The notes below the pieces were generated by a model. The model made no database searches, was not told the origin of the DNA, and saw nothing but the letters and a program-made list of their open reading frames with translations. The position numbers and the translations under genes were made by a program. Below are positions 2,413 through 37,250 of a DNA stretch of 58,038 nt, piece after piece; position 1 is the first letter of the stretch; every line of letters begins with the position of its first letter. This stretch comes from Microbacteriaceae bacterium PS02333 (GTDB lineage Bacteria; Actinomycetota; Actinomycetes; Actinomycetales; Microbacteriaceae): assembly GCA_029959665.1 (NCBI GenBank), contig JASCOI010000009.1:1-58038 (forward strand), in the 5' to 3' direction.

Positions 2413-2734
2413 CACCCGACCGTTTGGTTATTTCCATCGACGCCATTGGGGAATTTCTCCTCCGATCCGCGCGCTGGTGCGGATCTGCGGGCGAGTTTCT
2501 GGCTCTGAGGGCGCCGTGCCGATGTGCACTTTCTGCGGCGGCGCACCGGGTGTGCGCTCTGATCGCCTTTCGAAAACAATCCCTGACCTGGGCTTTCGTG
2601 TTCAGCTGGCGCCCGTGGGCCCTCATATGCAAAGCGGAGAGGCGTCTTCGGGTTCGCGCTGTCTCGCATCGCTCCCTGAGTTGCCCGGGTGGGGGTGTTC
2701 TTCGCTCGAGTCGCGGCGCTGGCTGGGCCTGCTG

Positions 2735-3715
2735 ATGACTCCGATTCAGGCTGGTCGTGCCGGGTTGCGCGCAGTCTTCGTGTCGGCTGCCGCCGCGAAT
2801 CTTCGGCCTGCGCGGTCTGATTCGCGGCGGGTGCTGCGGGCGCAGCTGGAGGGCTTGCTTCTCGCCGAGGGCGTCGTGTTGACCGATCGAGGTGCCATGC
2901 CGCTTGGGGGTGACGTGGGCGCCTTGTTTGCTTCTCGGCGTGAGACTGCGAATGGCTGCGACGACAGCCATGCGGCTCGGTCGGTGCCCTCGACGCTGGG
3001 GTGGGTGGTGGTCGACGGGCCCCGATCGGCGGCGGCGGTCGCGTGGAAGCGGTTGGCTGGCGTTGGTTCCGCCGTGCGGCGCGGTCATGGGCGCCGCTTG
3101 CGGTTGTTGTTGGTAGATGAGTCTGCGGGTGGTGCGCCGATCGCGGCGGTTGAGTTGTGCGATGCGCGTGGCGTGTTCGCGGACTGGGCGGGCTGGTCAG
3201 AGTGGCCGGAGTTGCAGCGGCGGGCGAAGCTGTCTCGTGTGTTCGGCGTGAACGTCTTGCGGGTCGGGGCGGGTTATGCGAGGGCGCTCGATGAGGGGGC
3301 GGTGATGTCGCGGCTTCGTGATGCCACGGTGCGGGCGGTCTTGCTGGAGCGTTACGGGGTGGATGTCGTGGCGCTTGAGGTGCAGCGTGATGCGTTGTCG
3401 TTGTCGCTGGTCAGTGGTGGGGGGTCGGCTTCGGCTACTGCGGTGCTCGTGCCGGTGGGGCGGGGGCGAGACCGGTCAGTGCTGCTGTGCGGTGCTGCCG
3501 CCGATGTGGTGGTGGAGGCTGCGGTGAGGGCCGGTTGTCATGCGCCTCGGCGCGCGCTGGGAGATCCGATAGCAGGTGATGCGGCGGTGGCGCGGCGCGG
3601 GTTGGTTGCGGTGGGGTTGCCAGCGGCCGCTCTGCGGGTGCCGGGGTCGGGAGATGAGTACTTCCTCCTGCCGTTGGTGCGCGGCTTCGAGACGGTGTTG
3701 CGTGGTTCGCCCTGA
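2735..3715 (+). CDS. Divergent DUF4338 / DruA-like protein
   Basis: The first protein of the island, about 326 residues from ATG 2735; earlier in-frame ATGs at 2522 and 2627 are possible because no Shine-Dalgarno sequence decides the start. The central part, GHGRRLRLLLVDES, then AAVELCDARGVF, then WAGWSEWPELQRRAKLSRVF, follows the order of blocks I recall for DUF4338 (a GYGRRLRFLV-like block, a LGDPVF-like block, an IGW-like block, then a region ending before a YG). That family includes DruA of the Druantia anti-phage system. The match is by eye and divergent, and no DruE helicase or other Druantia gene is nearby, so it is an orphan relative at most. It is GTG/TTG-rich and less GC-biased than serS, consistent with transfer. 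Confidence 0.5.
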   Translation: MTPIQAGRAGLRAVFVSAAAANLRPARSDSRRVLRAQLEGLLLAEGVVLTDRGAMPLGGDVGALFASRRETANGCDDSHAARSVPSTLGWVVVDGPRSAAAVAWKRLAGVGSAVRRGHGRRLRLLLVDESAGGAPIAAVELCDARGVFADWAGWSEWPELQRRAKLSRVFGVNVLRVGAGYARALDEGAVMSRLRDATVRAVLLERYGVDVVALEVQRDALSLSLVSGGGSASATAVLVPVGRGRDRSVLLCGAAADVVVEAAVRAGCHAPRRALGDPIAGDAAVARRGLVAVGLPAAALRVPGSGDEYFLLPLVRGFETVLRGSP

Positions 3716-3797
3716 TCTTGCGGTGACGCTGGTGGGGGAGTGTCTACGTCGCGAACGAATCAAACGCAGAATCAGACACTGAATTGTTTTACCGTGC

Positions 3798-3803
3798 TAT
3801 AGT
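3798..3803 (+). promoter_or_regulatory. -10 hexamer TATAGT, leaderless promoter
   Basis: TATAGT, preceded by TGC, ends 7 nt before GTG 3811. There is no Shine-Dalgarno sequence. This fixes the start of the XRE-ImmA gene at 3811 rather than at upstream in-frame codons. Confidence 0.6.
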
Positions 3804-3810
3804 CGAATCT

Positions 3811-4836
3811 GTGGATAACATTCTGGCGCAGGGAGACACGGTTTCGATGCTCCGTGCTGCACGCGGGCTCTCCCAGGCTGCGCTGGCATCGTCCGCCGGG
3901 CTGACACAGAGTCGGCTGTCGCGGCTGGAGCAAGGCGCCGAGCTTCTACCGGCCGATGAAGCCGCTCGCCTGGCGGCTGCACTTGACGTGCTGCCGGCGA
4001 CTCTCGGCGAACGAGCAGAGGAATTCACCTCCGCACGGGTGTTCCACCGCAAGCGCGCCAGCCTCCCCGTGAAGGTAGATCGGCAAGTGCGCGCGGACGC
4101 CGCGGTCCGCCGCTTCCAGCTGCGGCGTGCGCTCGGGGACGCGATACCCGCGGTGCGCATCGAGCACGATCCGCTTCCGGAGGACGGCACATACTCCCCG
4201 GAGGACCGGGCGAGCGAGTTACGTCGCCGGCTCGGGTTGGGCGTGGAGCCGATCCCGTCGATGACAGCCGTTCTGGAAGCAGCTGGCGTCATCGTTGTTC
4301 CCGTCGACCTCGACTCAGTCAAGCTCGATGCGATCGGTGGCTGGCCGGAGCACGGGGCGCCAATCATCCTTGTCGCGACGCACGCTCCAGGCGACCGGCA
4401 GCGTTTCACTCTTGCCCACGAACTCGGGCACGCGGTCCTGCACGACGGGTCGGGCGACGATCAAGAGGCCGAGGCAGATCGCTTCGCGTCGGCATTTCTC
4501 TTGCCACCGGCGATGGCCCGCACGGAGCTGCGCAATCCGACATTGAGTTCGCTCGTCGCGTTGAAAGCCCGGTGGGGTATGTCGATCGCCGCGCTCGGTC
4601 GTCGCGCGCGCGACTTGGGCTTCATGTCTGAGCGTGCGTACCGCGAGTTCAACATCCGGCTCAGCAGCACGGGCATGCACCGCAAAGAACCGGTGGAGAT
4701 TCCCACGGAGCAGCCCCGACTGATCCGCGACACCCTTGACCAGATCACCCGCACCAGCACCACCCTCGACGACGTCGCCGCTCGAGCAGGTATGAGCACC
4801 GACGCATTCATCCGCACCTACGTGGAGACAGCATGA
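3811..4836 (+). CDS. XRE HTH + ImmA/IrrE metallopeptidase (M78 family)
   Basis: A cytosolic regulator with two domains in 341 residues. An XRE-type helix-turn-helix (about 12-62; LRAARGLSQAALASSAGLTQ) is followed, after a linker, by a zinc peptidase domain with HELGHAVLH at about 203-211 and the downstream acidic stretch DDQEAEADRFASAFLLP that supplies the third ligand. ImmA/IrrE proteins cleave partner repressors or antitoxins, and the fused HTH suggests self-contained control. Its stop overlaps the next ATG by 4 nt, so the partner at 4833-5981 is co-translated. Transcription looks leaderless. Architecture resembles antitoxin-type XRE-ImmA proteins (HigA2-like). What it cleaves is unknown. 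Confidence 0.85.
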   Translation: MDNILAQGDTVSMLRAARGLSQAALASSAGLTQSRLSRLEQGAELLPADEAARLAAALDVLPATLGERAEEFTSARVFHRKRASLPVKVDRQVRADAAVRRFQLRRALGDAIPAVRIEHDPLPEDGTYSPEDRASELRRRLGLGVEPIPSMTAVLEAAGVIVVPVDLDSVKLDAIGGWPEHGAPIILVATHAPGDRQRFTLAHELGHAVLHDGSGDDQEAEADRFASAFLLPPAMARTELRNPTLSSLVALKARWGMSIAALGRRARDLGFMSERAYREFNIRLSSTGMHRKEPVEIPTEQPRLIRDTLDQITRTSTTLDDVAARAGMSTDAFIRTYVETA

Positions 4837-5981
4837 GCAACCCGAGCGCCCCGATCCTCACGACACCGTCTCAGCTGGGGGCCCATGGCGCGGACCCGGC
4901 ATCCGGTGAACGGCTCTCACGGTTCGACGGCATCCGCCACCGACTCTTCATCGGCGCCGGAGCCGATAGTGCGCGCATCGCCGAGCACCTCGACACCGGC
5001 CGGAACGGCATCGTGCTGCTTGGCGCGTCCGAGAGCAGGATGGCGCGTACGCTCCGCCGAACCCATCCCGACCTGCCGATCCTGATCGACCGGGTCGCCT
5101 ACTATCGCTACGAGGCGACCGCGGACGCCCCATTCCCGCTTCAGGAGAGCCCGAACCAGCTGCTGTCACCGCCGACGCTCACCGACGTAGCCGCGGCGCA
5201 ACTCGCGGAGGGCGCGACGCTGCCCGTGCTCGCGATGGGCTTCCTCGCCCCTGGCGACCCAGAACCGCTGCGTGCGGCCATCGCGCACCTGCGAGCTGCC
5301 GGCATCCGGGAAGGCATCCTGCTCGTCCCGGCCGACTTCAGCTGGCTGAAGAAGACCTATCGGGCGCAGTTCATCGCGATCCTGAAGACCTCACCGGTCC
5401 CCGTGGCGATCGCGTTGAACAACCGAGGCAACGCGCTCGAAGACTCCGATTGCCTGCACGGCTTTCGGCTGCTGTTCGAGCAGGTCCCGGACGCGATCGC
5501 CTGGCGAATCGACCACAACGGGCTCGGTGCGATGGCGCACGGCGCTGCCGCCGCGGTCATTGGCATGCTCGCATCACACCGGCACATCTCCGTCGAAGGA
5601 GAGATCTCCCGGACCCCCAATGACAAGCATCCCAATGTGTGGGTGGCGCAGTTGATGCGATGGGGAAAGGCGAGCGTGCTGCGCCGCAACTTCTTCACGA
5701 CCGTCGATGCGCCGGGATGCGCGTCGGCGCCGTGTCACGGTCAGAGCCCCGTCCGGTTCACCGCCACGGAGAGCGGCATCGCTGACGGCAACATGCACAA
5801 CGTATGCGCGTTCCTCGACGAGCACCGTCAGATGCCGACGAACCCGGACGAGGCTAAGGCGTGGTGGCGGACTCGCGTCCGTACAGCAGTGGACGCGACA
5901 GCGGCGTTCGGTGTGCGCATTCAGAAGCCGAAGCTGAAGCCGCCGGCTGACGTGGACAACTGGTTCAACGAACTGCGGTGA
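4833..5981 (+). CDS. Unknown protein, possible TIM-barrel-like fold
   Basis: A 382-residue protein I cannot assign. It is translationally coupled (ATGA) to the XRE-ImmA gene, which suggests a functional pair. No signal peptide or membrane segment is seen. Alternating short strands and helices (FIGAGADSARIAEHL, IVLLGASESRMARTL, ILLVPADFSWLKK, PVAIALNN) suggest an alpha/beta barrel. A segment WRIDHNGLGAMAHGAAAAVI and a later cysteine pair (CASAPC, about 300-305) with HNVCAF could be ligand or metal sites. If XRE-ImmA is an antitoxin or sensor, this would be the candidate toxin or effector. Its 3' end overlaps the convergent gene 5921-6607 by 61 bp. Confidence 0.65.
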   Translation: MSNPSAPILTTPSQLGAHGADPASGERLSRFDGIRHRLFIGAGADSARIAEHLDTGRNGIVLLGASESRMARTLRRTHPDLPILIDRVAYYRYEATADAPFPLQESPNQLLSPPTLTDVAAAQLAEGATLPVLAMGFLAPGDPEPLRAAIAHLRAAGIREGILLVPADFSWLKKTYRAQFIAILKTSPVPVAIALNNRGNALEDSDCLHGFRLLFEQVPDAIAWRIDHNGLGAMAHGAAAAVIGMLASHRHISVEGEISRTPNDKHPNVWVAQLMRWGKASVLRRNFFTTVDAPGCASAPCHGQSPVRFTATESGIADGNMHNVCAFLDEHRQMPTNPDEAKAWWRTRVRTAVDATAAFGVRIQKPKLKPPADVDNWFNELR

Positions 5982-6907: not shown

Positions 6908-7156
6908 GGTTCCGCTTTCCGGGATCCATAGTGTTGCGCGCCTGGAGATGCGCGTCGGAGGGAGGTGATCGGTGCGGCAGTCGCATGCGCCGAGATCCGC
7001 CGGAAGAGATGACGCGGGTGTTGCGGCGAACGTCATCGAGTCGGGTGATGGATGTCGTTGCCACACCTCTTCGGGGTGTGGAAGCTGAGGTTCTCTCTCC
7101 GGTATCGTCGGTGTGCCCAGCGGGTCATGGGGGTCCGCGGCAGGGAGGAGCCCACC

Positions 7157-8602
7157 TTGGCTGGAGAGATCACGCGACGCGATGACACCGATGACACCCT
7201 CGACCTGATGACTTTCGAGGTCGGGTTGTTGAGTGCGGTCGAACGGCTGGGTTTGCCGGTGGATCAGATCTTGGTGCCGGTCGGGCATCGGCAGCGCGTG
7301 TTCCAGCAGGTGCCAGGTGTGCTGGAAGAACTGGACGAAGTTAAGCGTGCCGACGCGGCGTACCTGTCGAAGTTCATGGCGGCTGTCGCGGCGGGCCTGT
7401 TCGACGCGGCACTGAACTACCTATGGGATGAGACGATTCGCGCTGTTCGACGCCGCGCTGCCGACTACGACCTGAATTACTTCTTCGACCAGGCTGCCGA
7501 GCCCGGATCTGATTTGCGCGGCAAGTTGCACACCGCTGACGACATGAAGCTCATTGATGACCAGAAGCTTCTCGTGGCGGCGAACCGGATCGGACTGATC
7601 ACCGATCTTGGCCATCGTCAGCTGGACCTGGTGCGATTCATGCGCAACCACGCTAGCGCGGCGCATCCGAACCAGTCGGAGCTGCGCGCGACGCAGCTGA
7701 TCAGTTACCTCGACACGTGCATCACCGAGGTCATCAATCCGGACGACAGCGAGTCCGTGATCCACGTGCGTCGTCTGCTGGCGAACATCAAGTCTTCCGC
7801 GATCGATCCGGCCCATGCGGCGGAGATGGCTGTCCCGTTCGACAACCTCATCCAGGACCAGGCTGACAACCTGGGGATGGGATTCTTCGGCATCTACACC
7901 AGGCCGGGTGCGGAAACGTTCGTGCTCGCCAACATCCGGCTGCTGCTTCCTGCGCTGTGGGTGCAGATCAGCGAGGAGGTCCGCAAACAGTTCGGGGTGA
8001 AGGCGTATCGGTTCCGCATCAACCATCAAGCCGCAGAAGCGGATCTCGCACGTGAATTCCTGGAAACCGTAGACGGCCTCTCTTACCTGCCGGATGACGC
8101 ACGAGTGCCACTGATCGACGGTGCGTTGGATGCGGTGCTGTCCGCGCATCGCGGATGGAGCAACTTCGCTGCGGAGGGGTTACCTGCTCAGGATCTCGTC
8201 CGGCTCCTCGGTGACGGCTACAGCGTCCCTCGCAGCATTCAGGAGAAGTACGTCACCGTCATCGTGTACGTGTTCCTCACCAACGGGTACGGGGTGTCTT
8301 GGGCGGCGAACCCCGTCTACGAAGAGCTGATCAGCAATTTCAACACCCGCGAAGCGACATTCGCCTTGAATACCATCACGAACACGACGGTAGCCAACCG
8401 CCTCCACCAACCCCTGTCGCAGGCGAAGTTCGGCGAACTGCTACAACTGATCGACGGGAAGATCGTCTCCGGCGCCCGACGGGCACTCTTCGAGGCACTG
8501 CGTCGAATGGACCCCGACGCATGGCAGGGTGCCGGTCGCAAAACGAGCGTCCAGCGGCTGCTGAGCGAAGCCAAGCGCGTGAAGAACGCGACGCGTCTGT
8601 AA
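7157..8602 (+). CDS. Large protein with HEPN-like R-x6-H motif
   Basis: A 481-residue, mostly helical cytosolic protein with no clear family. The segment FMRNHASAAHPN (R163 to H170) fits the R-X4-6-H signature of HEPN ribonucleases and sits in a helical context typical of them. The C-terminal half (SNFNTREATFALNTITNT and following) is a long helical array. The start is TTG 7157, because GGGAGGAG lies 6 nt upstream; the reading frame is open further 5' to an ATG at 7052. A NYN-domain nuclease gene follows 66 bp downstream on the same strand, suggesting two RNA-cleaving proteins in one cassette. HEPN assignment rests on the short motif only. Confidence 0.65.
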   Translation: MAGEITRRDDTDDTLDLMTFEVGLLSAVERLGLPVDQILVPVGHRQRVFQQVPGVLEELDEVKRADAAYLSKFMAAVAAGLFDAALNYLWDETIRAVRRRAADYDLNYFFDQAAEPGSDLRGKLHTADDMKLIDDQKLLVAANRIGLITDLGHRQLDLVRFMRNHASAAHPNQSELRATQLISYLDTCITEVINPDDSESVIHVRRLLANIKSSAIDPAHAAEMAVPFDNLIQDQADNLGMGFFGIYTRPGAETFVLANIRLLLPALWVQISEEVRKQFGVKAYRFRINHQAAEADLAREFLETVDGLSYLPDDARVPLIDGALDAVLSAHRGWSNFAAEGLPAQDLVRLLGDGYSVPRSIQEKYVTVIVYVFLTNGYGVSWAANPVYEELISNFNTREATFALNTITNTTVANRLHQPLSQAKFGELLQLIDGKIVSGARRALFEALRRMDPDAWQGAGRKTSVQRLLSEAKRVKNATRL

Positions 8603-8668: not shown

Positions 8669-9625
8669 ATGCGTTCCCAGACCGCCCTGTGTATCGACGC
8701 CGGCTACCTCATCGCCGCCGCCGCCACACGAGTCACCGGATCCTCGCTCCGCCGTGCCGTCTCCGTCGACTACCCGACCCTGCTGGGCGGGCTGCTGGAC
8801 CTCGTGCGCAGCGCCTCCGGCCTTCCGTTGCTGCGCGCGTATTGGTACGACGCGGCGCGCGACGGAGCTGCGCTGCCGGAACACGACGAGGTCGCTCTAA
8901 CGCCTCATGTGAAGCTCCGCCTCGGGCGGATCGGTGTGAACGGGGAACAGAAAGGCGTCGACATCCGGATCGGCCTGGACATGGTCGGTCATGCCCGCGG
9001 CAGCTCCGTCGATGTGATCTACCTGCTCTCCGGTGACGACGACCTCACCGAAGCGGTTGAGGAAGCGCAAGCCGAGGGTGTCGAAGTAGTCGTGCTTGCC
9101 GTTCCGGATCGACACGGACAACCTCATGGTGTTAGTCGGCACCTGTTGCGCGCCGCAGACGAACTGCTGCTCGTCCCCGACGCTCTCCTCGACCGCGCCG
9201 TGAACGCTGCCGGCCAACCACGCTCCGACCTGCCTTCGAGATCAGCGGTGCCGCCAGCATTGAGCAGCCCTGCTGCGGCACCGGCCAGCGCCACACCCAC
9301 CCCGGCTGACGCCGCTCGCGCGGCGACGGCGCGGCCACAGGTCGCGGAGTCGGCCGCACCGCGTCCAGCCGACGTGAACGCAGCGGTGATCCGCGACGTG
9401 GTCCGCCGAACCTTCGAGGCGTGGTCGGCGACCGCGTCGGAGGAGCAGCAGACGTGGCTGCGCCAGGACCGCCCCACCATCCCGCGCGAACTCGATCGTG
9501 CGCTTCTGGTGGATCTCTCCAGCGCCCTCGCGCAGTTCGACTTGAACGACAACACGCGTGTCAGACTCCGCGATGAGTTCTGGCTGCAGTTCGACGGCCG
9601 GACCGGCTCGAATACGACTTCCTGA
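8669..9625 (+). CDS. NYN-domain (LabA/DUF88-like) ribonuclease
   Basis: A 318-residue protein with a PIN-like NYN fold in residues about 5-170. Acidic metal-binding positions are visible at D10 (LCIDAGYL), D98 and D104 (KGVDIRIGLDM) and D123-125 (LLSGDDDL), in the order and spacing usual for NYN nucleases, followed by AQAEGVEVVVLAVP. An Ala/Pro-rich linker (about 180-225) leads to a C-terminal domain (VIRDVVRRTFEAW ... LRDEFWLQF) that may bind RNA or a partner. The likely role is metal-dependent RNA cleavage. It follows the HEPN-motif gene with the same orientation and probably forms one transcript. The ATG has no strong Shine-Dalgarno sequence. Confidence 0.85.
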   Translation: MRSQTALCIDAGYLIAAAATRVTGSSLRRAVSVDYPTLLGGLLDLVRSASGLPLLRAYWYDAARDGAALPEHDEVALTPHVKLRLGRIGVNGEQKGVDIRIGLDMVGHARGSSVDVIYLLSGDDDLTEAVEEAQAEGVEVVVLAVPDRHGQPHGVSRHLLRAADELLLVPDALLDRAVNAAGQPRSDLPSRSAVPPALSSPAAAPASATPTPADAARAATARPQVAESAAPRPADVNAAVIRDVVRRTFEAWSATASEEQQTWLRQDRPTIPRELDRALLVDLSSALAQFDLNDNTRVRLRDEFWLQFDGRTGSNTTS

Positions 9626-10487
9626 CCGCAGCTATCCGCGCCCTCCTCGCCAACCCGGCGGAGACGTCACCAACGGATCAATGCGGCTTCCCATGGTGCT
9701 GGTGGCGACGAGACATCGCCACGACGCCCGTCAATGTGACAATTTCCGACAAATAGGTACTGTTTTGCGGCGCGGGCAAAGTACGCATTCGCCGACCCCC
9801 AGGTCGGGGGGTATCGGTCCCCATTTCAGGAGGTGTGTTATCTCCTCGGATCGGCGCAACGCCGCGGATCGGCGGCTCTTGTCTGTCGTCGACTTTGCGT
9901 GGAGCCGGGTGGGGGACAAACGCGGGGATCCCAAATCGATGACGATTTTCGCCACCATGGAGTGAGCGCCGCAACGGCGCATCGTCATGGAGGTCCTGTG
10001 TTCACTGCAAGGTCGATACCCGCATTACCGGTGCGGCGTGCATCGCGGCTATGTCGGGACCATCCGTGCGAACGACCGCCGCCGTCGGCGCGGTACCCGC
10101 ATCCATCTCGATAGAAAGAGCAGCATCTATGTCCGCGCGTTTCGCGCGGAACGTGCTGAAGGCCGCCAGCATCGCTCCTGCCAGAGCATTGATGGGCGGC
10201 CCTCGAGGCGTCCGAGTAGACATCTCGAAGCATACGGTGCCGACCCACGAGGGTCAATACGCCCGTACGCCACGGCCCGTTCCGCCTGCCCAACACCACA
10301 CATCCACCCGACCAGCTGCTCCCCCCAGTGGACGCCGACGGCCCCCGACCCGTCGCCACCGTCCCTCGCCCTGGCGCCGACCACCCGGATCAACGGGACG
10401 CGCGGCCTCCGCGCCCTCCGCACCGATACACCCGCCATCCGGCAGCTCGTCGATCGCAGCCTTGGCGCGCCGCCCTGCGGGGCGATC
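9626..10487. other. Long gap before the recombinase gene
   Basis: About 860 bp without a convincing gene. It holds a short reading frame with a good ribosome site (GGAGGT at 9989, GTG 9998 to stop 10114, 38 codons) and an ATG at 10132 opening a low-complexity Pro/Arg frame; neither looks like a known protein. The recombinase frame is open through 9987-10487, but that part reads as Pro/Ser/Arg-rich filler. A 5' regulatory region or left end of a mobile element is possible. Confidence 0.5.
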
Positions 10488-11561
10488 GTGACGGGCGCGT
10501 CGGAGCCGTGGCTGCTGCCGAAGAACATCGGCGGACCGCCGGAGATCGACGCGGACGCCGTCGTCGCCCGTTACGAGCCGGTGCGCACCGACCAACGATG
10601 GCGTGACGTGGAACACGAGCTGATGCATCGGTATCTGCGCGCGATGGAACCGCAGTCGATCGAGCAGCTCCGGCACTTCGCCACGATCATCGCCCGCGCG
10701 ATCTTCCACGCCCGGGACCGGGGGATGACGCCGGACCCGGAGACGCTGTTCAGCGAGCGGTTCATCAACGACTTCGTGGGGTTTGGGCTGCCCGGATCCA
10801 CGGACCGCACTCGCACGAACTACCGCAGCGCAATGCGTAAGGCCGGACAGATGCTGCTCCGGAAGCCGCCGAGACGACGGTCAATCCCGGAATGGGAACG
10901 GTCAAGGATCGCGCCGCCGTACACGGAAGCGGACCTCATCGCGCTGTGGGCGTCGGTGTCGTCGCAGACGACCGAGCTGCGTCGTCGATTCCTGGAGTGT
11001 TGGCTCGTGCTCGCCGTCGGCGCCGGCCTGCGCACACAGGAGATGCGCTTCGTGGAAGCCGCTGACATCACCGACCTCGGCGACGTGATGCTGATCACCA
11101 TCCGGCCGCCTCGCGCCAGAACGGTGCCGCTGCGGCACGAGTTCAACAATCGGCTCCGCAGCATCCTCAACCGGTACCCGTCCGGGGTCCTGATCGGACC
11201 GTTTCGAGCATCGCAACGCGACCCGATGATCTCCGTCCGCTCCCGGCTCACCATGCCGGCATGGGCGCCGACACCCACCACGGAACGCATGCGAAGCACG
11301 TGGATCCTGGCACTACTGGAAGAGCAGATCCCCCTGATCCGGTTCCTTGAATACTCCGGACTGGAACGCTACCGATTCGAAGACGCCATCCCCTACATGC
11401 GTGATCGACGAAGCGACGCCGACGCTGACCTACGGCGAGCCGCCGGCATACACCCCTCCGACTTCCCCGCCCCGCCAGCGAACGGCGCAGCAGCACCACC
11501 ACCCCCTGGAACACACCACAGAGCACCTCTCCGGACAACAGAAGGTCAGACGAACCCATGA
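10488..11561 (+). CDS. Tyrosine-recombinase-like protein, degenerate active site
   Basis: About 357 residues from GTG 10488 (GCGGGG 5 nt upstream); the frame is open further 5', so the start is uncertain. An N-terminal helical SAM-like region (about 50-120) precedes a catalytic-like domain. Box I reads LAVGAGLRTQEM with arginine at about 182. Box II reads TTERMRSTWILALLEEQI, keeping the arginine (269) but having Glu in place of the first His and Ser in place of the second His/Lys. A tyrosine occurs at about 303 (IPYM). The nucleophile and one arginine may remain, but two of the usual catalytic residues are changed, so activity is doubtful. It overlaps the transposase-like gene by 4 nt (ATGA). 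Confidence 0.65.
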   Translation: MTGASEPWLLPKNIGGPPEIDADAVVARYEPVRTDQRWRDVEHELMHRYLRAMEPQSIEQLRHFATIIARAIFHARDRGMTPDPETLFSERFINDFVGFGLPGSTDRTRTNYRSAMRKAGQMLLRKPPRRRSIPEWERSRIAPPYTEADLIALWASVSSQTTELRRRFLECWLVLAVGAGLRTQEMRFVEAADITDLGDVMLITIRPPRARTVPLRHEFNNRLRSILNRYPSGVLIGPFRASQRDPMISVRSRLTMPAWAPTPTTERMRSTWILALLEEQIPLIRFLEYSGLERYRFEDAIPYMRDRRSDADADLRRAAGIHPSDFPAPPANGAAAPPPPGTHHRAPLRTTEGQTNP

Positions 11562-13417
11562 CGCGCCCGTCACCGCCGCCCCCCGACGACCTCGACCACT
11601 CGGCTGTCGACTCCACGCTGCAACTGCTCGCCGACCTCGGCGACCCCGATGCGGACCCCGCCCGCCGACCCAAGCACATCGCCAACGTCCCGCCGCTGTC
11701 CGACCGAGCCGCGATCACCGAGGCCCGCACCATCATCGCCCGCTCCGGCGTCAACCGCAGCGTGCTGTGGGCAGACGCGCGTCGACGTGGCCCGAAGCGA
11801 AAGATCCCGATCTTGACCATGCTGCACATCTGCGCCGCATTCCAGATCCAGGACCCCCGACGCGACCTGATCTTCCTCGACATCATCGGCTGGCTGGAGC
11901 ATCAGCTCTCACGGCAGAATCGGGAACGCATCGGGCTGATCGATGACCGCTGGAACTACGACCTCCTCCTCGACACGTTTCACGGGTTCATCACATCGAT
12001 CGACGACGTCGACTCCGTCCATCGCTTCGACAACGCCGGCACCTTGGTGCGTCCGCGAGTCGACGGGCTCCCCAGTCGCGATGTCATCCTCAACAGCCTC
12101 ATCGGCGCCGCTATCCCGGACGGATGCCCAAGCACACCGTTCAGCGCCATCGACTCAACGGACGCCGAGACGTTCGCGCGGCTGCGGACCAGCGAACGTC
12201 GCGTCGACGGTGACGACGAGTACGTCCCGGACAACCTGAAGAAGGAGAAACCCGAAAAGTGGGGGCTCCCGATCGATCAAATCCCGAAAGGACCCGATGA
12301 ACGCTTCATCCTCAGCGCCGACGTCGAGGCTCGCTGCGGGTACCGCACCGTCGTCAACGGCACCAGGAGCAACACCTTCATCGGCTGGGACGCCCACGTG
12401 CTCGTCGACGCCGGCTGGATCGGCGCAGAGTTCTACGTGCAGTTCATCCGCGGCATGGTGTTCCGGCCCGCTGGATCCCACAAGGGCGACGCCGGCATCG
12501 CACTGATCGACTCACTCGTCGAACGGTTCGTCGTCGACACGCTCTGCGCGGACCGCGGATACAGCTACGCCACCGCCGACCGATGGGTCCGGCCGCTCGC
12601 TGCACGTGGAATCCGTTGGGTCCACGAACTGCACAAGAGCCAACGTGGAGAACGCACCCTGCTCTGCCACGACACATTCACCGGCCACGTCCTCATCGAT
12701 GGCACGATCTTCACCAAAGCGCTGCCGGAGAACCTCCGTTCGCTACCAGCTCCGGCATGGGGAATGCCCACCGACGAACGAGACGCCCTGATCGCCCAGT
12801 ACGACGCTCGCGCTCGCTACGCATTCACCCCGAACGGTTCGGCCCGGCCAGACGGATCGTGGCAGTACCGCGGACCGGCGCGCGTAGGCCGCGTCGACTG
12901 CATCAACACGGATCCCAGCCGTCGCATCAACGCCGACGCTCCGATCACACGCTGCGCAAAAGGTGACCACTGCTGGTGCGACAGAAACCCCCTCATTCCC
13001 GGCGATGACTACCTCGGACTCCGGCAGCATCTGATCTACGGCACCACCGCCTGGGCGGAGGCATACGGGCTGCGCAACGCCAGCGAATCCACCATGGCCG
13101 AACACAAGAACAACCGGGGCACCATGCGCCGCGGCAGCACCGCAATCTTCGGCACCACAGCGAACGCGTTCGTCTTCGCGATGCGCTGCGTCGCAATCAA
13201 CGTCGCCCTCCGACGCCGCGCCTACGGAGATCGGGTCAACCTGCGCACCGCCGACCCCAACGACGTTCCGACGGTGCAGCGTCTGCGACCACGAAAGCAC
13301 ACCCCGCGGCACTTGCGTCGCGGCCCTAAGCAACGCCCGCCGATCCGCCGGCAGGCCACGACTCAGCTCCGCAGCCGCATCCGGGCCACGCCGGAACGAC
13401 GACGCGGTTCTTCGTGA
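11558..13417 (+). CDS. DDE transposase-like protein with Cys motif
   Basis: A 619-residue protein with an RNase-H-type DDE layout: D199 in FSAIDSTDAETFARL, D332 in DTLCADRGYSYATADRW, and E510 in AYGLRNASESTMAEHKNNRG, the C-terminal R-N-x-x-E pattern of actinobacterial IS4/IS1182-like transposases. A cysteine cluster (C466, C472, C474; CAKGDHCWC) just before the last block could bind zinc. The C-terminus is very basic. It is translationally coupled to the recombinase-like gene. No terminal inverted repeats were found by eye, so this may be a domesticated pair or an unusual mobile element rather than a standard insertion sequence. Confidence 0.7.
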   Translation: MTRPSPPPPDDLDHSAVDSTLQLLADLGDPDADPARRPKHIANVPPLSDRAAITEARTIIARSGVNRSVLWADARRRGPKRKIPILTMLHICAAFQIQDPRRDLIFLDIIGWLEHQLSRQNRERIGLIDDRWNYDLLLDTFHGFITSIDDVDSVHRFDNAGTLVRPRVDGLPSRDVILNSLIGAAIPDGCPSTPFSAIDSTDAETFARLRTSERRVDGDDEYVPDNLKKEKPEKWGLPIDQIPKGPDERFILSADVEARCGYRTVVNGTRSNTFIGWDAHVLVDAGWIGAEFYVQFIRGMVFRPAGSHKGDAGIALIDSLVERFVVDTLCADRGYSYATADRWVRPLAARGIRWVHELHKSQRGERTLLCHDTFTGHVLIDGTIFTKALPENLRSLPAPAWGMPTDERDALIAQYDARARYAFTPNGSARPDGSWQYRGPARVGRVDCINTDPSRRINADAPITRCAKGDHCWCDRNPLIPGDDYLGLRQHLIYGTTAWAEAYGLRNASESTMAEHKNNRGTMRRGSTAIFGTTANAFVFAMRCVAINVALRRRAYGDRVNLRTADPNDVPTVQRLRPRKHTPRHLRRGPKQRPPIRRQATTQLRSRIRATPERRRGSS

Positions 13418-13572: not shown

Positions 13573-13845
13573 GTGGAGCAGTCGCGTGGTTCCGCCAACA
13601 GCGTCCCCGACCTATGGTTGGGGCGCTCGGGCGAAAGCGCATCTGGCGGGATCTGTTCGAGGTGCGGCAGCCGATCGGCTCACGGTGTGCCGGGCGGCGA
13701 TGACGACACCTCAGCCGGGCGTCGACCGCACAGCATGCGCCGATTGATGCAGCGCCGAGTTCGCACGGTGGCGTTGCGCACATTCGACCGCGGAGCGCCG
13801 AGGCAGCTTGAACCGTGGCCTCCGAGCGGCGTCATAGGTGCCCGC

Positions 13846-13851
13846 TACCCT
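13846..13851 (+). promoter_or_regulatory. -10 hexamer TACCCT, leaderless methyltransferase promoter
   Basis: TACCCT ends 6 nt before ATG 13858 and no Shine-Dalgarno sequence is present. Confidence 0.5.
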
Positions 13852-13857
13852 CTTGCT

Positions 13858-15567
13858 ATGGCATCTGCTGAGGCGGTGGCGGGACTCGCCCTTGAGGGTC
13901 CGACGGATATCGCCGCGATCGTGGCGGAGAACCGCGATGAGGCAGCACAGCACCTCCTGAGTGCACTAGGCACCTGGTGGCGCCGCTCCGTCCGGTCGGC
14001 AGGCGTTGACGAAGGCTGGGAGGATCTCGCGACCGCAATCGCCGCTCGGCCGCCGCTGGAACCACTGCCGATCGATATCACGACGATGCCGCTGCGGGTG
14101 GACGGAGACGGCTATGACCTCGGAGAGGCCTACGTCGCGTTGCTCGATCCGCGGCAGCGCAGTGAACACGGACGCCATTACACGCCTCGCCGACTGGCGG
14201 AGCGGCTGTGGGTAATGGCTCGCGAAGAGCGCGGGGCAGCGGTCGACGGGCTCGTCCGTGATCCAGCCTGCGGTGCGGGCGCGCTGCTGATCATGCCGGT
14301 TCGGGACTATCTCGAGCGACACGCGGCTGCCGACGCGGCGATGACGTTAGCGTCGATCCCGCAGGCGATTGAGGGCATCGACACCGACCCCTGGGCGGTG
14401 TACGTGGCAAATGTCGTCCTCGCCGCAGAGATGCTCCCCACGTTGGCGCGGACCAGCACGTGGGCCCGGCCCCTTCCGGCGCTCGCACGTGTCGGCGACG
14501 GCCTGACAGCGGATCTGGGACCAGCAGCTGTGTGGATCATGAACCCTCCATACGGACGCCGACAAATGACAGAAGCGGAGCGGGACCATCTCGGCCACAC
14601 CGTGCACGGCCACGCGAACATGTACGGACTGTTCCTGGCCGCAGCGACCGAGCGTCTCACCGACGACGGCGTGATCGCGGCGCTCGTACCAACGAGTTTC
14701 ACCGCCGGACTGTATTTCTCCAAGCTCCGCCGGCACCTCACCGACGCGGCACCGATGCGCCGAATCGCGTTCGTCCGGAACCGCAGCAACGTGTTCCGCG
14801 ACGTGCAACAAGAAACCTGCCTTGCGGTGTTCGCCGCGGCGCGCCCCGCCGGCGTCGCGGTCGAGTCCATCGGCGCCGAGGCAGACGCGATCGGTTCGTT
14901 CAGCGCGCCGACCTCGGACGGGCCGTGGATCCTTCCACGCCGTCATCTCGACGCGGACCTCGCCGCGCGAGCCGCGGCACTGCCCTTGACGTTGCGCGCG
15001 GCCGGATGGCACGCATCCACCGGTCCACTGGTGTGGAACCGTCGCCGCAGCGATCTGCGCTCTCGTGCGGGAAAGAACCGGGTGCGCGTGGTGTGGGCGG
15101 CGGATATCGACGGCGGGGCCCTGCACCGGGACCCGGCGCGGAACAGCTTCCGATACCTCATCCTCCACGACGAACGCGATCGCATCACTAACACCCTCAC
15201 GGAACCGGCCGTCCTCGTGCAACGCACCACGGCGCCGGAACAACACCGACGGCTTGTCGTGTCGCCGGTGACCCAGGCTGAACTCGACGCCCACGGCGGT
15301 TCGGTCATCGTCGAAAATCACGTCAATGTGCTGCGGAACGCCTCGGGACCGTCGCTGATGTCCCACGATCTCCTCGCCCGGCTGCTGAGCACGAACACCG
15401 TCGACCGGGTCATGCGATGCATCTCCGGGTCGACGGCGGTGAGTTCATATGAACTCGGTGCGCTGCCCCTGCCCGATCCCGACATGTTGACGTATCTCGG
15501 GTCGGTCGGTCCGAACGATTTCGAAGCGGCAGTCGCCAAGGCCTACGGAGTGCCGCTAGCGTTCTAG
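13858..15567 (+). CDS. Type II DNA adenine-N6 methyltransferase (PstI/BsuBI-type system)
   Basis: Transfers a methyl group from S-adenosylmethionine to adenine in the recognition site, protecting host DNA from the nuclease encoded next to it. 569 residues. GRHYTP (105-110) precedes motif I DPACGAGALL (135-144, cofactor binding), and motif IV is NPPY (229-232, target adenine). The C-terminal half is the target-recognition region. It ends 1 nt before the restriction gene, so they form an operon with the methyltransferase first. By analogy with PstI and BsuBI the site may be CTGCAG, but the recognition domain cannot be read for specificity. An ATG start with a TACCCT hexamer 6 nt upstream suggests a leaderless message. 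Confidence 0.88.
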   Translation: MASAEAVAGLALEGPTDIAAIVAENRDEAAQHLLSALGTWWRRSVRSAGVDEGWEDLATAIAARPPLEPLPIDITTMPLRVDGDGYDLGEAYVALLDPRQRSEHGRHYTPRRLAERLWVMAREERGAAVDGLVRDPACGAGALLIMPVRDYLERHAAADAAMTLASIPQAIEGIDTDPWAVYVANVVLAAEMLPTLARTSTWARPLPALARVGDGLTADLGPAAVWIMNPPYGRRQMTEAERDHLGHTVHGHANMYGLFLAAATERLTDDGVIAALVPTSFTAGLYFSKLRRHLTDAAPMRRIAFVRNRSNVFRDVQQETCLAVFAAARPAGVAVESIGAEADAIGSFSAPTSDGPWILPRRHLDADLAARAAALPLTLRAAGWHASTGPLVWNRRRSDLRSRAGKNRVRVVWAADIDGGALHRDPARNSFRYLILHDERDRITNTLTEPAVLVQRTTAPEQHRRLVVSPVTQAELDAHGGSVIVENHVNVLRNASGPSLMSHDLLARLLSTNTVDRVMRCISGSTAVSSYELGALPLPDPDMLTYLGSVGPNDFEAAVAKAYGVPLAF

Positions 15568-15568
15568 C

Positions 15569-22039: not shown

Positions 22040-22077
22040 GGACGAAGAATGACATCTGTCATCACCGTGCGCAATGG

Positions 22078-22366: not shown

Positions 22367-22393
22367 GGGTTCGCCCATGTTCGCATGAATGAG

Positions 22394-22426: not shown

Positions 22427-22433
22427 TGGATGG

Positions 22434-23668: not shown

Positions 23669-23715
23669 AGACTCATCCTCCCATGGCCCGCTGACAGCTG
23701 CACGGTCCATGTTGG

Positions 23716-27857: not shown

Positions 27858-28934
27858 TCACGCTGACGGAGCCGTCGCGGGTGATGCTTCCGCCAGCTCT
27901 TGTGGCTCAACTGCCAGCCACTCGTTCAGGATGCGCGCCGTCGTCGTGCAGAGGTCGTCAAGCTCGTCGAGACGGTGCGGTGTCGATTTCACGCCGAGCG
28001 CCCAGCCCTCCTTGTCCGTGTAGCCCTTGACGAGCCAGCGCTCGTCCCCGAGATGCTTTTCAGCGACATCGAGTTTGTTGTCGCGCGGCGGGTTCGGCTT
28101 CGCCTTACGGTCGTCATCGGAGCGGCGGGGCGCGGGGTGGAGGCTGACAGTCAGTTCCGTGAGACGGTCATCCGTCAGCACCTCCCTGCGCAGGGTCGCG
28201 AGGTGCTGAGCCCAGATTGGGGCCGTAGTTCCACCGTCGCCGGGGAAGTCGACGTCTACCGGGTTGGTACGAATCTCGATCCCGAGGCTGTACTCGAGGC
28301 GCAGCTTGCCGGGGTCGGTCGGCAAGCCCTGACCGGTGACTTGAATCTGACCGCGGATCGTCCGTCCGGACGCGAGCTTTGGCGAGTGGAACTCGATCGA
28401 CGGGTTTCCGTTGCCGTTCCGACGCACGTGCACCTTCCATCCGGGATCGGTGAGGAGGCGACCGAAGTTGGTGTCTCTCAGCACTCGTTCGACTCGCCGC
28501 TTCGTCAGTGGCATAGCGTCGACGTCGGCTTTGGTGAGCCGCGAGTCCTTGAACGACCCGAGGACGTCAGCCCATGCCAGGACACAGAGGTCAGGGAACT
28601 CTGGGGCGTCAGTCGCCTCAGGAAGCACCACGACCAAGTGGCCACCGCCGTGTTCCTCGAGCGCCTGCAGTTCCTTGTCGACCTGCTCCTCGGTCAGCTC
28701 GTGGTCGAACTTCGACTCGATGCCCACAATCGTGGAACGGTCTCCGTCGGTGAAGGTCAAGAGGAGGTCGATGTCCCCGATGCCTTCGCACCGCACCGAC
28801 ACGAACTCGCCGAGGCCCGGCTCGCTCAGATCGAGTGTCTCCCCCAGGAGCTTAGTAAATGCCACCGGATCGTGTCGGATCTCCGCTGCGAACGCCCGGT
28901 TCGCCATCGTCTCAGTTGTGTACACGACACTCAT
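27858..28934 (-). CDS. PD-(D/E)XK nuclease-like protein
   Basis: 358 residues. GDIDLLLTFTDGDRSTIVGIESKFDHEL gives the motif order D54/D56 ... E73-x-K75, a classical PD-(D/E)XK site, with the strand pattern expected around it. The C-terminal 200 residues are an unassigned beta-rich region. It stands alone, with no methyltransferase or helicase on its strand, so its trigger or target is unknown; a stand-alone defence nuclease is likely. The ATG has GAGGGG upstream. Confidence 0.7.
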   Translation of the reverse strand: MSVVYTTETMANRAFAAEIRHDPVAFTKLLGETLDLSEPGLGEFVSVRCEGIGDIDLLLTFTDGDRSTIVGIESKFDHELTEEQVDKELQALEEHGGGHLVVVLPEATDAPEFPDLCVLAWADVLGSFKDSRLTKADVDAMPLTKRRVERVLRDTNFGRLLTDPGWKVHVRRNGNGNPSIEFHSPKLASGRTIRGQIQVTGQGLPTDPGKLRLEYSLGIEIRTNPVDVDFPGDGGTTAPIWAQHLATLRREVLTDDRLTELTVSLHPAPRRSDDDRKAKPNPPRDNKLDVAEKHLGDERWLVKGYTDKEGWALGVKSTPHRLDELDDLCTTTARILNEWLAVEPQELAEASPATAPSA

Positions 28935-31485: not shown

Positions 31486-31502
31486 GCAAGGAGGAGATCC
31501 TC

Positions 31503-33561: not shown

Positions 33562-36366
33562 CTACGCGGGAAGCTGCCCCTGCTGAGTCATCTGCACGTA
33601 CCGCTCGAAGAGACGCTGCGACCGCGCCTGGGCGGAAGGCACCTTCGCGAAGCCGAACAAGCGATCGATGACCTTGTCCAGATGCATGTGCGCCTTCTGC
33701 AGTCCGGCGTCCATCGCGATTGGGTTGTACATCTGCGCCAGCGATTGGCCGATGAGTGCGGCCCGTGCGTCGAGCACCGCTCGTCCCGCCGTGATGATCC
33801 GTTCGCGCTCGGCAGCCGAGATGTTCGGGAACGGGAACGTGTTCCATGTGGACGTGTTGCCGAAGCGGAGGTCGGACTTGATGCGGCCCCCGACGAGGCG
33901 CTGCCACGCGAGAAACATCTTCGACGAGATGACGGCGAACAGCAGTCCGTCAGGGTCGACAGCGGTGAAGTTAGCGTTGCTGGCGACGACGTTCGGCTCG
34001 AAGCGAGCCACGGTCGCGTAGTCGCGCGCGGCGGTGAAGTGTGCGGGGATGCAGATGTACGGGACGCTCGGCTGCTGGTCGTTCCAGAACAGGTGAGGGG
34101 TCTGCGCCATCGCGAGGGTCGAGGGGTAGGTGCTGGCCTCGCGCATCTCGCGCACCTTCGCGAGCCGGTCTGCGATGAACGGGCTGCGCAGCGCCTTCGT
34201 GAGGTCAGCGTCACGGAGCCACAAGCACCACCGCCCCTTGTTGGAGATCAGCTCGTCGGCGCCGACGTAGCGCTGGACGTAGGGTGCCGCGATCGGGTCG
34301 CGGAGTGCCTCGTCGCGAGCTTCGGCGTCGAGCAGGAGATTCCCTCCGTCGCTCGGCTGCGACCCGACCATCGCGGGGCTCAGTGCCGGGCTCAGCGGGG
34401 TCATCCGCTTCGTCACCGGGATTTGAGCGCCCTCGGTGAGGTAGGGGCTGATCTCCTGTACCCACTCCTCGCGGTCGCCGGACGCCGTGGCGGTGAAGAT
34501 GCGGCGGGGGTCGTTCGGGTTGCGGTCGCAGCCGATGATGACGCAGTGGACGGCGGCGGCTCCCGCGGCTTCTGATGTCCAGGCGAAGTTCCGGTAGGCG
34601 AAGCGGATGTGCCAGCCGAGTCTGCGCATGGTTCCGAAGAGGGACTCGACGGGTTCGCCTTGCGTGATCGAGTTCGTTGCCACGAATGCGAAGTGGCCGC
34701 CTCCTTGAGCGCGAGCGTCATGGAAGTAGGTCATCGCGGCCGCGAACCAGGAGGTGACGAAGTCCATCTGCTTGCTGTACTTGCCGTGCTTGGACCAGAC
34801 GCGGTCCATTGTGTCGCGCTGCGTCGCGGTGCGGACCTTCTTGCCGAGGAAGGGCGGGTTGCCGAACACGTAAACGTGCGGCGAGGGAGTGAACAGGTCG
34901 GCCCAGTCGACGGTCAGGGCGTCAGCGTGGACGATCTTCGGCGCGAGCTTGATCGGTAGACGTTCCGGCGCGGCGCCGAGAGATTCTGCCATGCGCTGGT
35001 TCGCCTGGTGGTCGACGAGGAACATGGCGGTCTCGGCGATCTTCGCGGGCCACCAGTTGATCTCGATGCCGCCGAACTGGTCGGGGCTGACCTTCAGGTC
35101 CCAGGTGCCGTCGAGCGTGTAGGCGGTGGTCTCGCCGCGGAGTTCACGGAGCCGTTCGAGGAGCCGCAGCTCGATGTCGCGCATCTCGCGGTAGGTGATG
35201 ATGATGAAGTTCCCGCAGCCCATCGCCGGGTCCATGTAGCGCATTGCCTCGAAGGAGTCGTGCAGCTTCAGGAGGGCTGCTTCCGATGGCCAGGCAGCCT
35301 TCAGCTGCTCTTCGATGGCGTCGAGGAACAGGGGCCGCAGGGTCTTCAGGATGTTCGTCTCGGTCGTGTAGTGCTCGCCCTGCTTCCGGCGCGCCTCGCG
35401 GCTCGACATGCCCTGGAACAGAGAGCCGAAGATGGCGGGCGAGACGCCGCTCCACTCCTCCCGGCATGCGACCAGGAGGGCGGTGCGCATGTCGCGGTTG
35501 AAGGTGGGGATGTCAACTCGATCCTGGAACAGGCCGCCGTTCACGTACGGGAAAGCGAGGTAGATGTCATCGAGGTGCGGGGAGCGACGCTGCTTCGGTG
35601 TGTCGAGCACTTGGAAGAGCTGCGTGATGAGTGCGCCGCAGTCGGAGCCGTCTTCGGCGGTGTGGTCGAGGACGAAGCGCTCGAACAGGCCCTGGTCCCA
35701 GAGTCCTCCCGCGTCGTCACCGTAGAGCAGGAAGAGCAGGCGGGTCATGAAGACTGCTGCCTGCTCGGAGTCGTGCCCCTCGGCCATCGCGTCCACGTCA
35801 CCGAGAAGCGTGTCGTAGAGGGCACCCATGGTGCGCGCCGCCTGCACGGTGACGGCTTCCTGCTTCTCGATCGCGCGCTTCGGGGCCCGGTAGCCGGAGA
35901 GGAACGCGAAGTGGCGGATGTTCTTCGTCAGGTCCTGCACCCGGAACTGGATCGGGTCGTCGGAGGGTGATTCGAGGTCGCGGATGCGGATGACGTCGAA
36001 GTCCGAGGCGACGACGTAGCGGGGCATCTCAGCCGGGGTGATGTCGCCGGTGGCGAGGTAGTCGAGCGCCTGGTCCTCGGCAGCCTGGAGGTCCTTCCCG
36101 AGGCTCTTGGACTCGCCGATCATCACGCCGGGCATGAAGATGTCGATGCGGCCGCGTTCGCCGGTCGATGCCCGCTTGGCGCGCTGCTCGAAGACGGCGA
36201 CCGTGCGGCGGTCGAGCCCGAACGTCTCAAAGAGGTCGTTCCACCAGGTCTGGGAATCGGCCTGCTCGCTACTCGCGCCCTTCCAGGTCGCGACGAACTT
36301 CTGAGCACGGCGGGTCATCTCCGTGGTGGAGAGCACCTTCGGCTTGGCGCTGGGCTTCGATGCCAT
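33562..36366 (-). CDS. MmeI-like type IIL restriction-modification enzyme
   Basis: A 934-residue single-chain enzyme that both methylates adenine and cuts DNA at a distance from its site. Order of domains: N-terminal nuclease with D75-x9-E85-x-K87 (RIDIFMPGVMIGESKSLGKD), the exact MmeI spacing; a helical linker (about 150-330); a gamma-class adenine methyltransferase with motif I DPAMGCGNF (379-387) and motif IV NPPF (503-506); then a C-terminal target-recognition domain (about 620-850). These enzymes modify one strand only. Start ATG 36366 is chosen over GTG 36387; neither has a good ribosome site. It is the last gene of the island. Confidence 0.93.
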   Translation of the reverse strand: MASKPSAKPKVLSTTEMTRRAQKFVATWKGASSEQADSQTWWNDLFETFGLDRRTVAVFEQRAKRASTGERGRIDIFMPGVMIGESKSLGKDLQAAEDQALDYLATGDITPAEMPRYVVASDFDVIRIRDLESPSDDPIQFRVQDLTKNIRHFAFLSGYRAPKRAIEKQEAVTVQAARTMGALYDTLLGDVDAMAEGHDSEQAAVFMTRLLFLLYGDDAGGLWDQGLFERFVLDHTAEDGSDCGALITQLFQVLDTPKQRRSPHLDDIYLAFPYVNGGLFQDRVDIPTFNRDMRTALLVACREEWSGVSPAIFGSLFQGMSSREARRKQGEHYTTETNILKTLRPLFLDAIEEQLKAAWPSEAALLKLHDSFEAMRYMDPAMGCGNFIIITYREMRDIELRLLERLRELRGETTAYTLDGTWDLKVSPDQFGGIEINWWPAKIAETAMFLVDHQANQRMAESLGAAPERLPIKLAPKIVHADALTVDWADLFTPSPHVYVFGNPPFLGKKVRTATQRDTMDRVWSKHGKYSKQMDFVTSWFAAAMTYFHDARAQGGGHFAFVATNSITQGEPVESLFGTMRRLGWHIRFAYRNFAWTSEAAGAAAVHCVIIGCDRNPNDPRRIFTATASGDREEWVQEISPYLTEGAQIPVTKRMTPLSPALSPAMVGSQPSDGGNLLLDAEARDEALRDPIAAPYVQRYVGADELISNKGRWCLWLRDADLTKALRSPFIADRLAKVREMREASTYPSTLAMAQTPHLFWNDQQPSVPYICIPAHFTAARDYATVARFEPNVVASNANFTAVDPDGLLFAVISSKMFLAWQRLVGGRIKSDLRFGNTSTWNTFPFPNISAAERERIITAGRAVLDARAALIGQSLAQMYNPIAMDAGLQKAHMHLDKVIDRLFGFAKVPSAQARSQRLFERYVQMTQQGQLPA

Positions 36367-37250
36367 GGGGTCCGTTCTCGGTCGCACGGGGCCGATGCCG
36401 GGAAACCCCCGCTCGGCAGTGGTCTTACGGTACCTGCAGCGCTGACTCGTACAGCGCCCGATGCACCGTCATGGCCGCAGTTGGCTTCACCAACTATTCG
36501 ACCGCTCGGCTCCGCGTTCCTTCGCAGTTGTTGTGCCGATGCTTGCCTGGCTCCAACCTGCGTCGAAGAGCTATCAGCGGCGCCTGCGGGGAGCTGTCAT
36601 GAATATCGCCTACCGCCGTGCAGGTGCCAAGGCGATGCAAACGGTGCGAGATGGCGGGAAGCTAGACAACGTGCAGCCGAACACCAGGGAACGGCGCGAG
36701 GAAGATTCGATGCCGCTACGCAAACTCGCACCGTCTATCGTTGACGGCGGGACGGTGAGCACCGCGGGAGTCCTCGTTGTAGCGAAGAGTGGACCTGGCG
36801 ATCGAGTTTCTGAGGAACACGCTCGTGGACCAACACGGTCGCGACCGCTCTCGGCCTCTGCTCTACCCGCCTGCGTTTGAGTGGCCCTAACTCCTCGGAG
36901 GCTGATACTCATGCTACGGGCGCACTTCCGAGCCTCGCAGTGACATGCCGCGCGCCGCTCGATTCCATCCATGATCTAGCACACGGCTCGGCCGTCCACC
37001 GGTTCCTCTATGTCAACGCGCCCACGATGCGCCTGCCACAACACCCAGCCGAGCGCTGCCCTTTACCTCCAGACGAGGCACTTCGAAGGTTTGGAATGCC
37101 CGGTCGCTACCGTGTCCATATGCAAACGACCCCGGACCGCGTATGCAACATCGGCCCTGAACGATCGCAGATGCCAGTAAAGACAGGGAGAAACGAAATA
37201 ACCCAAACCCCGGCACCTGCCGCTGAGGCGCGACGCGTACCGTCGACGGC
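36367..37250. other. Island right flank, no supported gene
   Basis: About 880 bp between the type IIL gene and the first core gene. Frames on both strands are short and unconvincing. I looked for a copy of the tRNA-Ser 3' end as an attachment site and did not see one. The core gene promoter lies at 37238. Confidence 0.45.
37238..37243 (+). promoter_or_regulatory. -10 hexamer TACCGT, leaderless promoter
   Basis: TACCGT ends 7 nt before ATG 37251; no Shine-Dalgarno sequence. Confidence 0.5.

Follow-up and report, generated by a model that had tools for sequence, protein, structure and literature searches.

A predicted tRNA-directed transposon with a degenerate recombinase partner as the likely carrier of a defence-rich island in a Curtobacterium-type genome

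How does a block of predicted defence genes come to lie directly behind an intact tRNA gene? The question is raised by contig JASCOI010000009.1 of Microbacteriaceae bacterium PS02333, a Curtobacterium-type genome, of which positions 1 to 58,038 were analysed (the window). An island of ~34.8 kb (2414 to ~37,212) is flanked by tRNA-Ser(UGA) on the left (2328..2413, forward strand by ARAGORN; Rfam puts the end at 2412) and by an SDR/oxidoreductase-like core gene on the right (37251..37901, forward strand). The tRNA gene is the predicted target. The block from the tRNA to ~37,212 is rather likely a single transposon, which a predicted Tn5-like DDE transposase would have placed at the tRNA 3′ end with the aid of a partner protein; the defence genes would be its cargo. 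A wider reading has, in our judgement, about even chances of being correct: a phylum-wide transposon family whose Tn5-fold DDE transposase finds the 3′ ends of tRNA or transfer-messenger RNA (tmRNA) genes under the guidance of a dead tyrosine recombinase. The lineages of this family would be specialised on single tRNAs, would build tRNA-linked defence islands in Curtobacterium and relatives, and would represent a simpler, independent form of the TnsF principle discussed below.

An empty site is present in the relative G024 (genomes and loci are given G and L numbers). Here the SDR gene begins at position 37 past the tRNA end, and homology to the window restarts at 37,223. In the five fetched relatives with the SDR gene beside the same tRNA, the gap is ~37 bp to 1.75 kb and never 35 kb (~0.34 to 1.75 kb in G014, G013, G030 and G021). 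Given the short gaps in G024 and these four relatives, the island is an insertion. GC content in steps of 2 kb is 0.62–0.70 in the island versus 0.70–0.74 across most of the right flank. The initial annotation, made by reading the sequence, had described an acquired, defence-rich island behind tRNA-Ser(UGA) and had proposed the GC comparison; the empty site, the gene content and the lower GC bear it out. An identical gene order in all close relatives, which it had named as evidence to the contrary, was not found, as these five relatives lack the island. Its left boundary directly after the tRNA stands, whereas the right edge lies near 37,212 and not at 37,250.

The tRNA 3′ end is not repeated in the window: the closest other 22-mer carries five mismatches and lies inside a second tRNA-Ser. 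Direct repeats of at least 14 bp to the tRNA region were absent from the window and from loci of ~20 kb in 10 relatives. This computed search agrees with the initial annotation, which had seen no attachment-site repeat by eye. The island does not look like the classical form flanked by attachment sites; its insertion appears transpositional, with inverted ends and a short target duplication. A different island of ~40 kb occupies tRNA-Ser(UGA) in G007 (L011, L013), where the tRNA 3′ end is repeated (29-bp match, 97%); this island is of the classical integrase kind. Classical islands therefore also occupy the site and are detectable when present. A plasmid search with positions 1–25000 of the window matched serS alone.

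Two genes inside the island (9987–13417) form a conserved module. The second (11558..13417, forward strand) encodes a predicted DDE transposase of 619 amino acids; D, D and E are each kept in 20/20 alignment rows covering the residue. The transposase alone matches no Pfam model at an E-value of 1, and a PDB sequence search gave no credible match. The first gene (9987..11561, forward strand; true start uncertain, conserved from ~10434) encodes a protein with a predicted tyrosine-recombinase fold, whose active site is degenerate. Two Arg and perhaps the Tyr are kept; the His of the HxxR motif, the following His and the His/Trp are missing. Its Pfam integrase match (0.0018) is below the cut-off. 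The top Foldseek match is XerH (5jk0), and further structural matches include the phage regulators MrpR, YopR and SroF, inactive recombinases that act as repressors. A word-based homology search with the protein retrieves itself alone, and a seven-row alignment gives five more matches (two named 'hypothetical protein', one 'integrase' and two unnamed). Two recombinase-like genes are often present in relatives.

Relatives of the pair adjoin tRNA genes (Ser, Leu, Gln, Gly, Val, Lys, Ala, Tyr, Met) or tmRNA across Actinomycetota. Within the order-wide set the transposase gene faces the tRNA 3′ end and stops 111–269 bp from it in 8/11 places (Lys, three times Leu, Val, Ala, Gly and Ser). The other three are a fragment overlapping tRNA-Val, a weak match near tRNA-Arg and one place without a tRNA. 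A first scan of the genome-contig set with the single transposase gave no match; a second gave 12 loci including G301, and five of the other 11 show the same layout at 198–268 bp. Once fragments were merged, the phylum-wide search gave 20 distinct places besides the window (one of them, G085, is also in the order set). At 13 of these a tRNA, in one case tmRNA, lies at 112–230 bp, and one more has a T-loop and the doubled motif described below. In the genus set, the transposase is within 300 bp of a tRNA in 4/11 places and in a fifth the frame runs into the tRNA; in G287, G301, G015, G016 and G035 the element end abuts the tRNA, with the transposase deeper inside. For genomes of some 50 tRNA genes, the background chance of such proximity is estimated at below 1% per place. 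Given this proximity of related pairs to tRNA genes in many Actinomycetota, a tRNA-homing transposon that comprises the whole block is likely. At L184 (G593) the element end abuts the tmRNA gene and not a tRNA.

A doubled end motif, by eye near TTCACGAA or TTGCNNNTCT, follows directly after the tRNA. Its two copies in the window are TTTGGTTATTTC (2423–2434) and TTGGGGAATTTC (2446–2457), which make up the left element end (2423..2457, forward strand) with a period of 23 and 9/12 matching letters (7/10 on a shorter word). In total, 38 left ends were compared (13 from the phylum, eight from the order, five from the genome-contig set, 11 from the genus and the window; G298 was excluded, having no end there). 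At least 8/10 letters match in 23 of the 38, versus a mean of 0.61 and a maximum of 4 after shuffling. All 23 have a period of 22 or 23 bp, including L181, which matches at another offset. Where the doubled motif is missing, the tRNA is immediately followed by a terminator-like hairpin. For two other serine tRNAs, the 30 best-scoring of 60 genomes were inspected in each case. The doubled word (at least 8/12) is present in 17/30 loci at tRNA-Ser(CGA) (random expectation 4.8%), with another word in L056 and L075, and in 5/30 at tRNA-Ser(GCU), of which L109 is chance-like; G016 has an end and scores below.

Three side observations concern these ends. The genome of PS02333 itself has a second element end on contig C71 (L054/L110) at tRNA-Ser(CGA), with a doubled motif of 12/12; the contig ends soon after. 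Ser(GCU) left ends at L087 (G017) and L088/L140 (G300) belong to genomes without a transposase match in the genus search and are possibly non-autonomous or decayed copies. L140 also shows a transposase remnant beside tRNA-Gln.

The right element end of the window is an inverted copy of the left one, GAAATAACCCAAAC (37195..37208, reverse strand; local-alignment score 22). It is accepted since it lies at a junction that is fixed independently by the empty site. The candidate target duplication consists of CACCCG (2413..2418) on the left and CACCTG (37214..37219) on the right (5/6 letters, CACC identical), just before the homology to the empty site resumes. A scan for right ends covered 23 elements, the window included. 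Inverted terminal repeats were seen in the window, G035, G291 and L131 and were not found in the other 19. In the three relatives the right end is accepted on the agreement of inverted end, duplication and flank. The far end of G035 reads CGTTAACTATCC|CACTCC and that of G291 CGTTAACTACCC|CACTGTA; in both, the sequence found at the tRNA recurs. Both far flanks match the sequence that directly follows the tRNA in empty relatives (G291: 382 bp, 79%). L131 repeats CACCCGCCG over 9.4 kb. A strong, terminator-like hairpin lies beyond all three far ends. The target duplications thus measure 6, 7 and 9 bp in the three relatives and 4 to 6 bp in the window. Inverted copies inside G287, G015 and G301 were dropped, being away from any definable junction.

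The transposase tree follows the tRNA. Among 27 transposases, nine changes of the tRNA label are counted (minimum eight) versus 17.7 in shuffles, with 0/200 shuffles as low; near-copies within the genus inflate these counts. The tree covers neither the later phylum set nor loci that lack a clear tRNA; the label of G298 is that of its distant tRNA. Beside the Ser(GCU) group stands a group with full support that comprises the window, G301 and G298. The Leu(CAG) elements L130 and L131, which come from two families, likewise cluster with full support, and the seven Leu rows need two changes versus 6.3 on average in shuffles. That the transposase tree tracks the tRNA bears only indirectly on whether the partner specifies the target site. 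Probably, the predicted inactive recombinase selects the target.

A putative mechanism can be outlined from these features. The recombinase-like protein would recognise the tRNA gene, and the transposase would bind the doubled motif and its inverted copy at the other end, excise the element and join it beside the tRNA discriminator base. The predicted defence genes would be carried as cargo. Insertion is presumably cheap for the host, because the tRNA sequence is kept.

Several observations weigh against such a transposon. As to the ends, 15/38 left ends are below 8/10, with that of the window at 7/10. Although the right-end score of 22 is reached by only 2/1500 random 60-bp stretches of the window, this test was devised once the junction was known. 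Blind scans of the window ranked this end second in one case (best match at 35,315) and outside the top three in another, and the duplication is exact over 4 bp only. Right ends were accepted in 3/22 other elements, and among these the left ends of G035 and G291 are near-identical and so not independent. No secure right end was found for the Ser(CGA) elements, where the candidate in G294 lacks a secure boundary, nor for G301, G015 and G016. As to location, no tRNA is seen at 6/11 genome-contig places, among which L151 is located at a contig end, and at 6/20 phylum-wide places. In G298, the pair and tRNA-Ser(UGA) are 18 kb apart, and the tRNA shows no end motif beside it. Unlike its order- and phylum-wide relatives, the pair of the window lies 7.6 kb into the island and is oriented away from the tRNA. 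As to the proteins, Foldseek with the transposase model, which is of moderate quality (mean predicted local distance difference test 67), gave nothing at 1e-3 or better (top match piggyBat, 0.05). The PF00589 cut-off is reached in 1/7 recombinase-like proteins scanned and 3/7 have no match, and by eye Y stands at the tyrosine position in 8/27 partners, including that of the window.

The same transposon could operate with a different division of labour, in which the transposase itself recognises the tRNA end and the recombinase-like protein is a repressor or an end-binding helper. The presence of MrpR, YopR and SroF among the structural matches fits this, as do the doubled end motif and the frequent second recombinase-like gene. 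Its frequent pairing with a site-specific transposase and the target-selector role given for TnsF in the relevant passages of PMC10293859 favour targeting. The repressor or helper role is a tentative alternative. Equally tentative is the proposal that the region behind the tRNA is an accretion zone, where successive elements arrived and the pair is only one passenger. It would account for the patchy composition, for an MmeI gene that is 94% identical to the copy in G016 amid unmatched surroundings, for the G007 island at the same tRNA, which shares no DNA with that of the window, and for the right end not being ranked first by the blind scans. However, an inverted end motif is located at the right junction, the order of p516, the pair and the metallophosphoesterase is kept in G015, and the pair is accompanied by the AbiEi-metallophosphoesterase set in G301 and G298 (these genes are described below). 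Cargo swapping within one element would fit these facts as well.

Very unlikely is a classical integrase-driven genomic island or a remnant of an integrative and conjugative element (ICE). The position at the tRNA 3′ end and the integrase-like gene would be expected of it, but the tRNA 3′ end is not duplicated, the integrase-like protein lacks the catalytic set, and resolved relatives have target duplications of 6–9 bp. The reading of the island as one tRNA-directed transposon is preferred.

The contents of this putative transposon were scanned with Pfam (30 island open reading frames), PADLOC (20 of those) and NCBIfam. Several known defence families are clustered. A protein with an XRE helix-turn-helix (HTH) domain and an ImmA/IrrE peptidase (3784..4836, forward strand; Pfam 2.2e-17) is followed by the overlapping p382 (4833..5981, forward strand), which has no family and no match in Pfam, PADLOC or NCBIfam and no credible one in a PDB sequence search. 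No family is assigned to p516 either (7052..8602, forward strand); its homologue in G015 (43% identical) is placed between the tRNA and the transposition pair. An NYN-domain protein (8669..9625, forward strand; Pfam 2.6e-10, PADLOC) precedes the pair. Behind it lies a restriction-modification (R-M) system of PstI/BsuBI type (13573..16675, forward strand) with an N6 methyltransferase (13573–15567, N6_Mtase 2.4e-8) and an endonuclease (15569–16675, 8.9e-26), both from Pfam. A dGTPase (17375..18904, forward strand; Pfam, PADLOC 1.3e-75, NCBIfam TIGR01353 above cut-off) is immediately preceded by a small reading frame (17107–17373).

The AbiEi-like gene (19802..20731, reverse strand; PADLOC 1e-18) overlaps that of a metallophosphoesterase (MPE; 20728..21609, reverse strand; Pfam). 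Two small proteins complete this set, m168 (21611..22117, reverse strand), whose homologues adjoin the MPE in L042 and L043, and the HTH protein HTH23 (22389..22706, forward strand; Pfam below cut-off), with homologues in the same loci. A HIT-domain protein (23129..23710, reverse strand; Pfam) and a nucleotidyltransferase-like protein, PDC-M70A (23716..24897, reverse strand; PADLOC 1.3e-48), are neighbours (23129–24897) and a candidate two-gene defence system. The protein at 27858..28934 (reverse strand) looks PD-(D/E)XK-like by eye and has no match in Pfam, PADLOC or a PDB sequence search. By the same kind of reading, the genes at 30084–33140 resemble secretion and regulation rather than defence. 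A single-chain R-M protein of MmeI type (33562..36387, reverse strand; Pfam 1e-76) is the last of the named cargo. At the left edge (2414–3715), the strands are strongly asymmetric (AT skew -0.30 in the interval 2001–4000), and a long open frame matches DruA below threshold. Beyond the island, a short intergenic REP-like repeat is present at 45064–45107 and 51738–51783, and in both orientations in fetched relatives.

The profile scans confirm the contents named in the initial annotation (R-M systems, here of PstI type and MmeI, dGTPase, AbiEi-like, XRE-ImmA). The recombinase/transposase pair was also correctly seen there, but was counted as mere content, whereas it is the likely engine. The proposal that the genes of no known family are candidates for new systems rests on their defence-type neighbours, but such proximity is weak evidence of function. 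These genes may serve the element, because the AbiEi-MPE-m168-HTH23 set accompanies the pair in two relatives and p516 does so in one.

When the island DNA (2414–37230) was compared by blastn with 15 fetched loci, it matched only in the pair, p516, the MPE/AbiEi/m168/HTH23 genes and MmeI; the MmeI DNA of G016 is 94% identical across 3.0 kb. The full set recurs in G301 and G298 and the MPE in G015, G016 and G035. By locus, the set (19802–22706) is kept beside the pair in L042 and L043 and the MPE alone in L039–L041. MPE homologues occur in 7/248 genomes, the own genome included. The set thus seems tied to the element in the lineage of the window; possibly it serves the element as a module for addiction or regulation, in which AbiEi may have a new partner. 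For the cargo of relatives, 10 proteins were scanned, five of which had no PADLOC or Pfam match or were scanned in one library only. G035 carries a PifA-like ATPase, a weak SAVED-CHAT match and an MPE. The cargo of G291 is not obviously defence (an MFS transporter, an AlkZ-like protein and a beta-propeller protein). L131, with both element ends resolved, has cargo proteins of 1424 and 408 amino acids without a Pfam or PADLOC match (12744–18380). The predicted defence genes look like exchanged cargo.

No description of such a pair was seen in searches of the open-licence PMC literature. Islands and ICEs at tRNA genes integrate by means of an active integrase and leave a second copy of the tRNA 3′ end. 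The island shares their position at the tRNA 3′ end and differs by the missing duplication and the degenerate integrase-like protein. From Tn5/IS4-type elements it differs by tRNA-end specificity, the partner protein, the doubled end motif and the large cargo. The closest parallel is Tn6022, a Tn7-like transposon in which TnsF, an inactivated tyrosine recombinase domain, is needed for insertion into comM, as described in parts of PMC10293859. Common to both are a DDE transposon with an inactivated partner of tyrosine-recombinase fold and XerH as structural neighbour, which those passages name for TnsF and Foldseek gives here (5jk0). The likeness is one of predicted fold and degenerate site. 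By the same passages, Tn6022 uses TnsA, TnsB, TnsC and TniQ, none of which was found among the 30 island reading frames (Pfam) or the 20 that were scanned with PADLOC; instead of these, the island has one predicted Tn5-like transposase, and tRNA/tmRNA 3′ ends are targeted instead of comM. Tsy elements, non-Tn7 and directed to comM by active tyrosine recombinases (PMC10293859, passages on Tsy), likewise have a target selector of tyrosine-recombinase type outside Tn7 elements. In the present system, however, the active site is degenerate and a tRNA gene is targeted, and the passages on Tsy name no DDE transposase. Tn7-like transposons with defence cargo are site-specific and collect defence systems (PMC8649781); this they have in common with the island, whereas transposition genes and target differ.

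Defence islands behind tRNA genes are usually explained by integrases. In many genera of one phylum, however, such islands appear to be placed by a transposon that has no active integrase. It would be a compact site-specific insertion system, composed of a transposase and one or two small proteins, that leaves the target gene intact. Its lineages, seemingly specialised on different tRNAs, offer a natural series for how a recombinase fold becomes a target selector. The end sequences could delimit tRNA-linked islands in Actinomycetota, so that unassigned cargo becomes testable as defence candidates with proper boundaries. If true, this reading would explain how defence islands come to lie beside tRNA genes.
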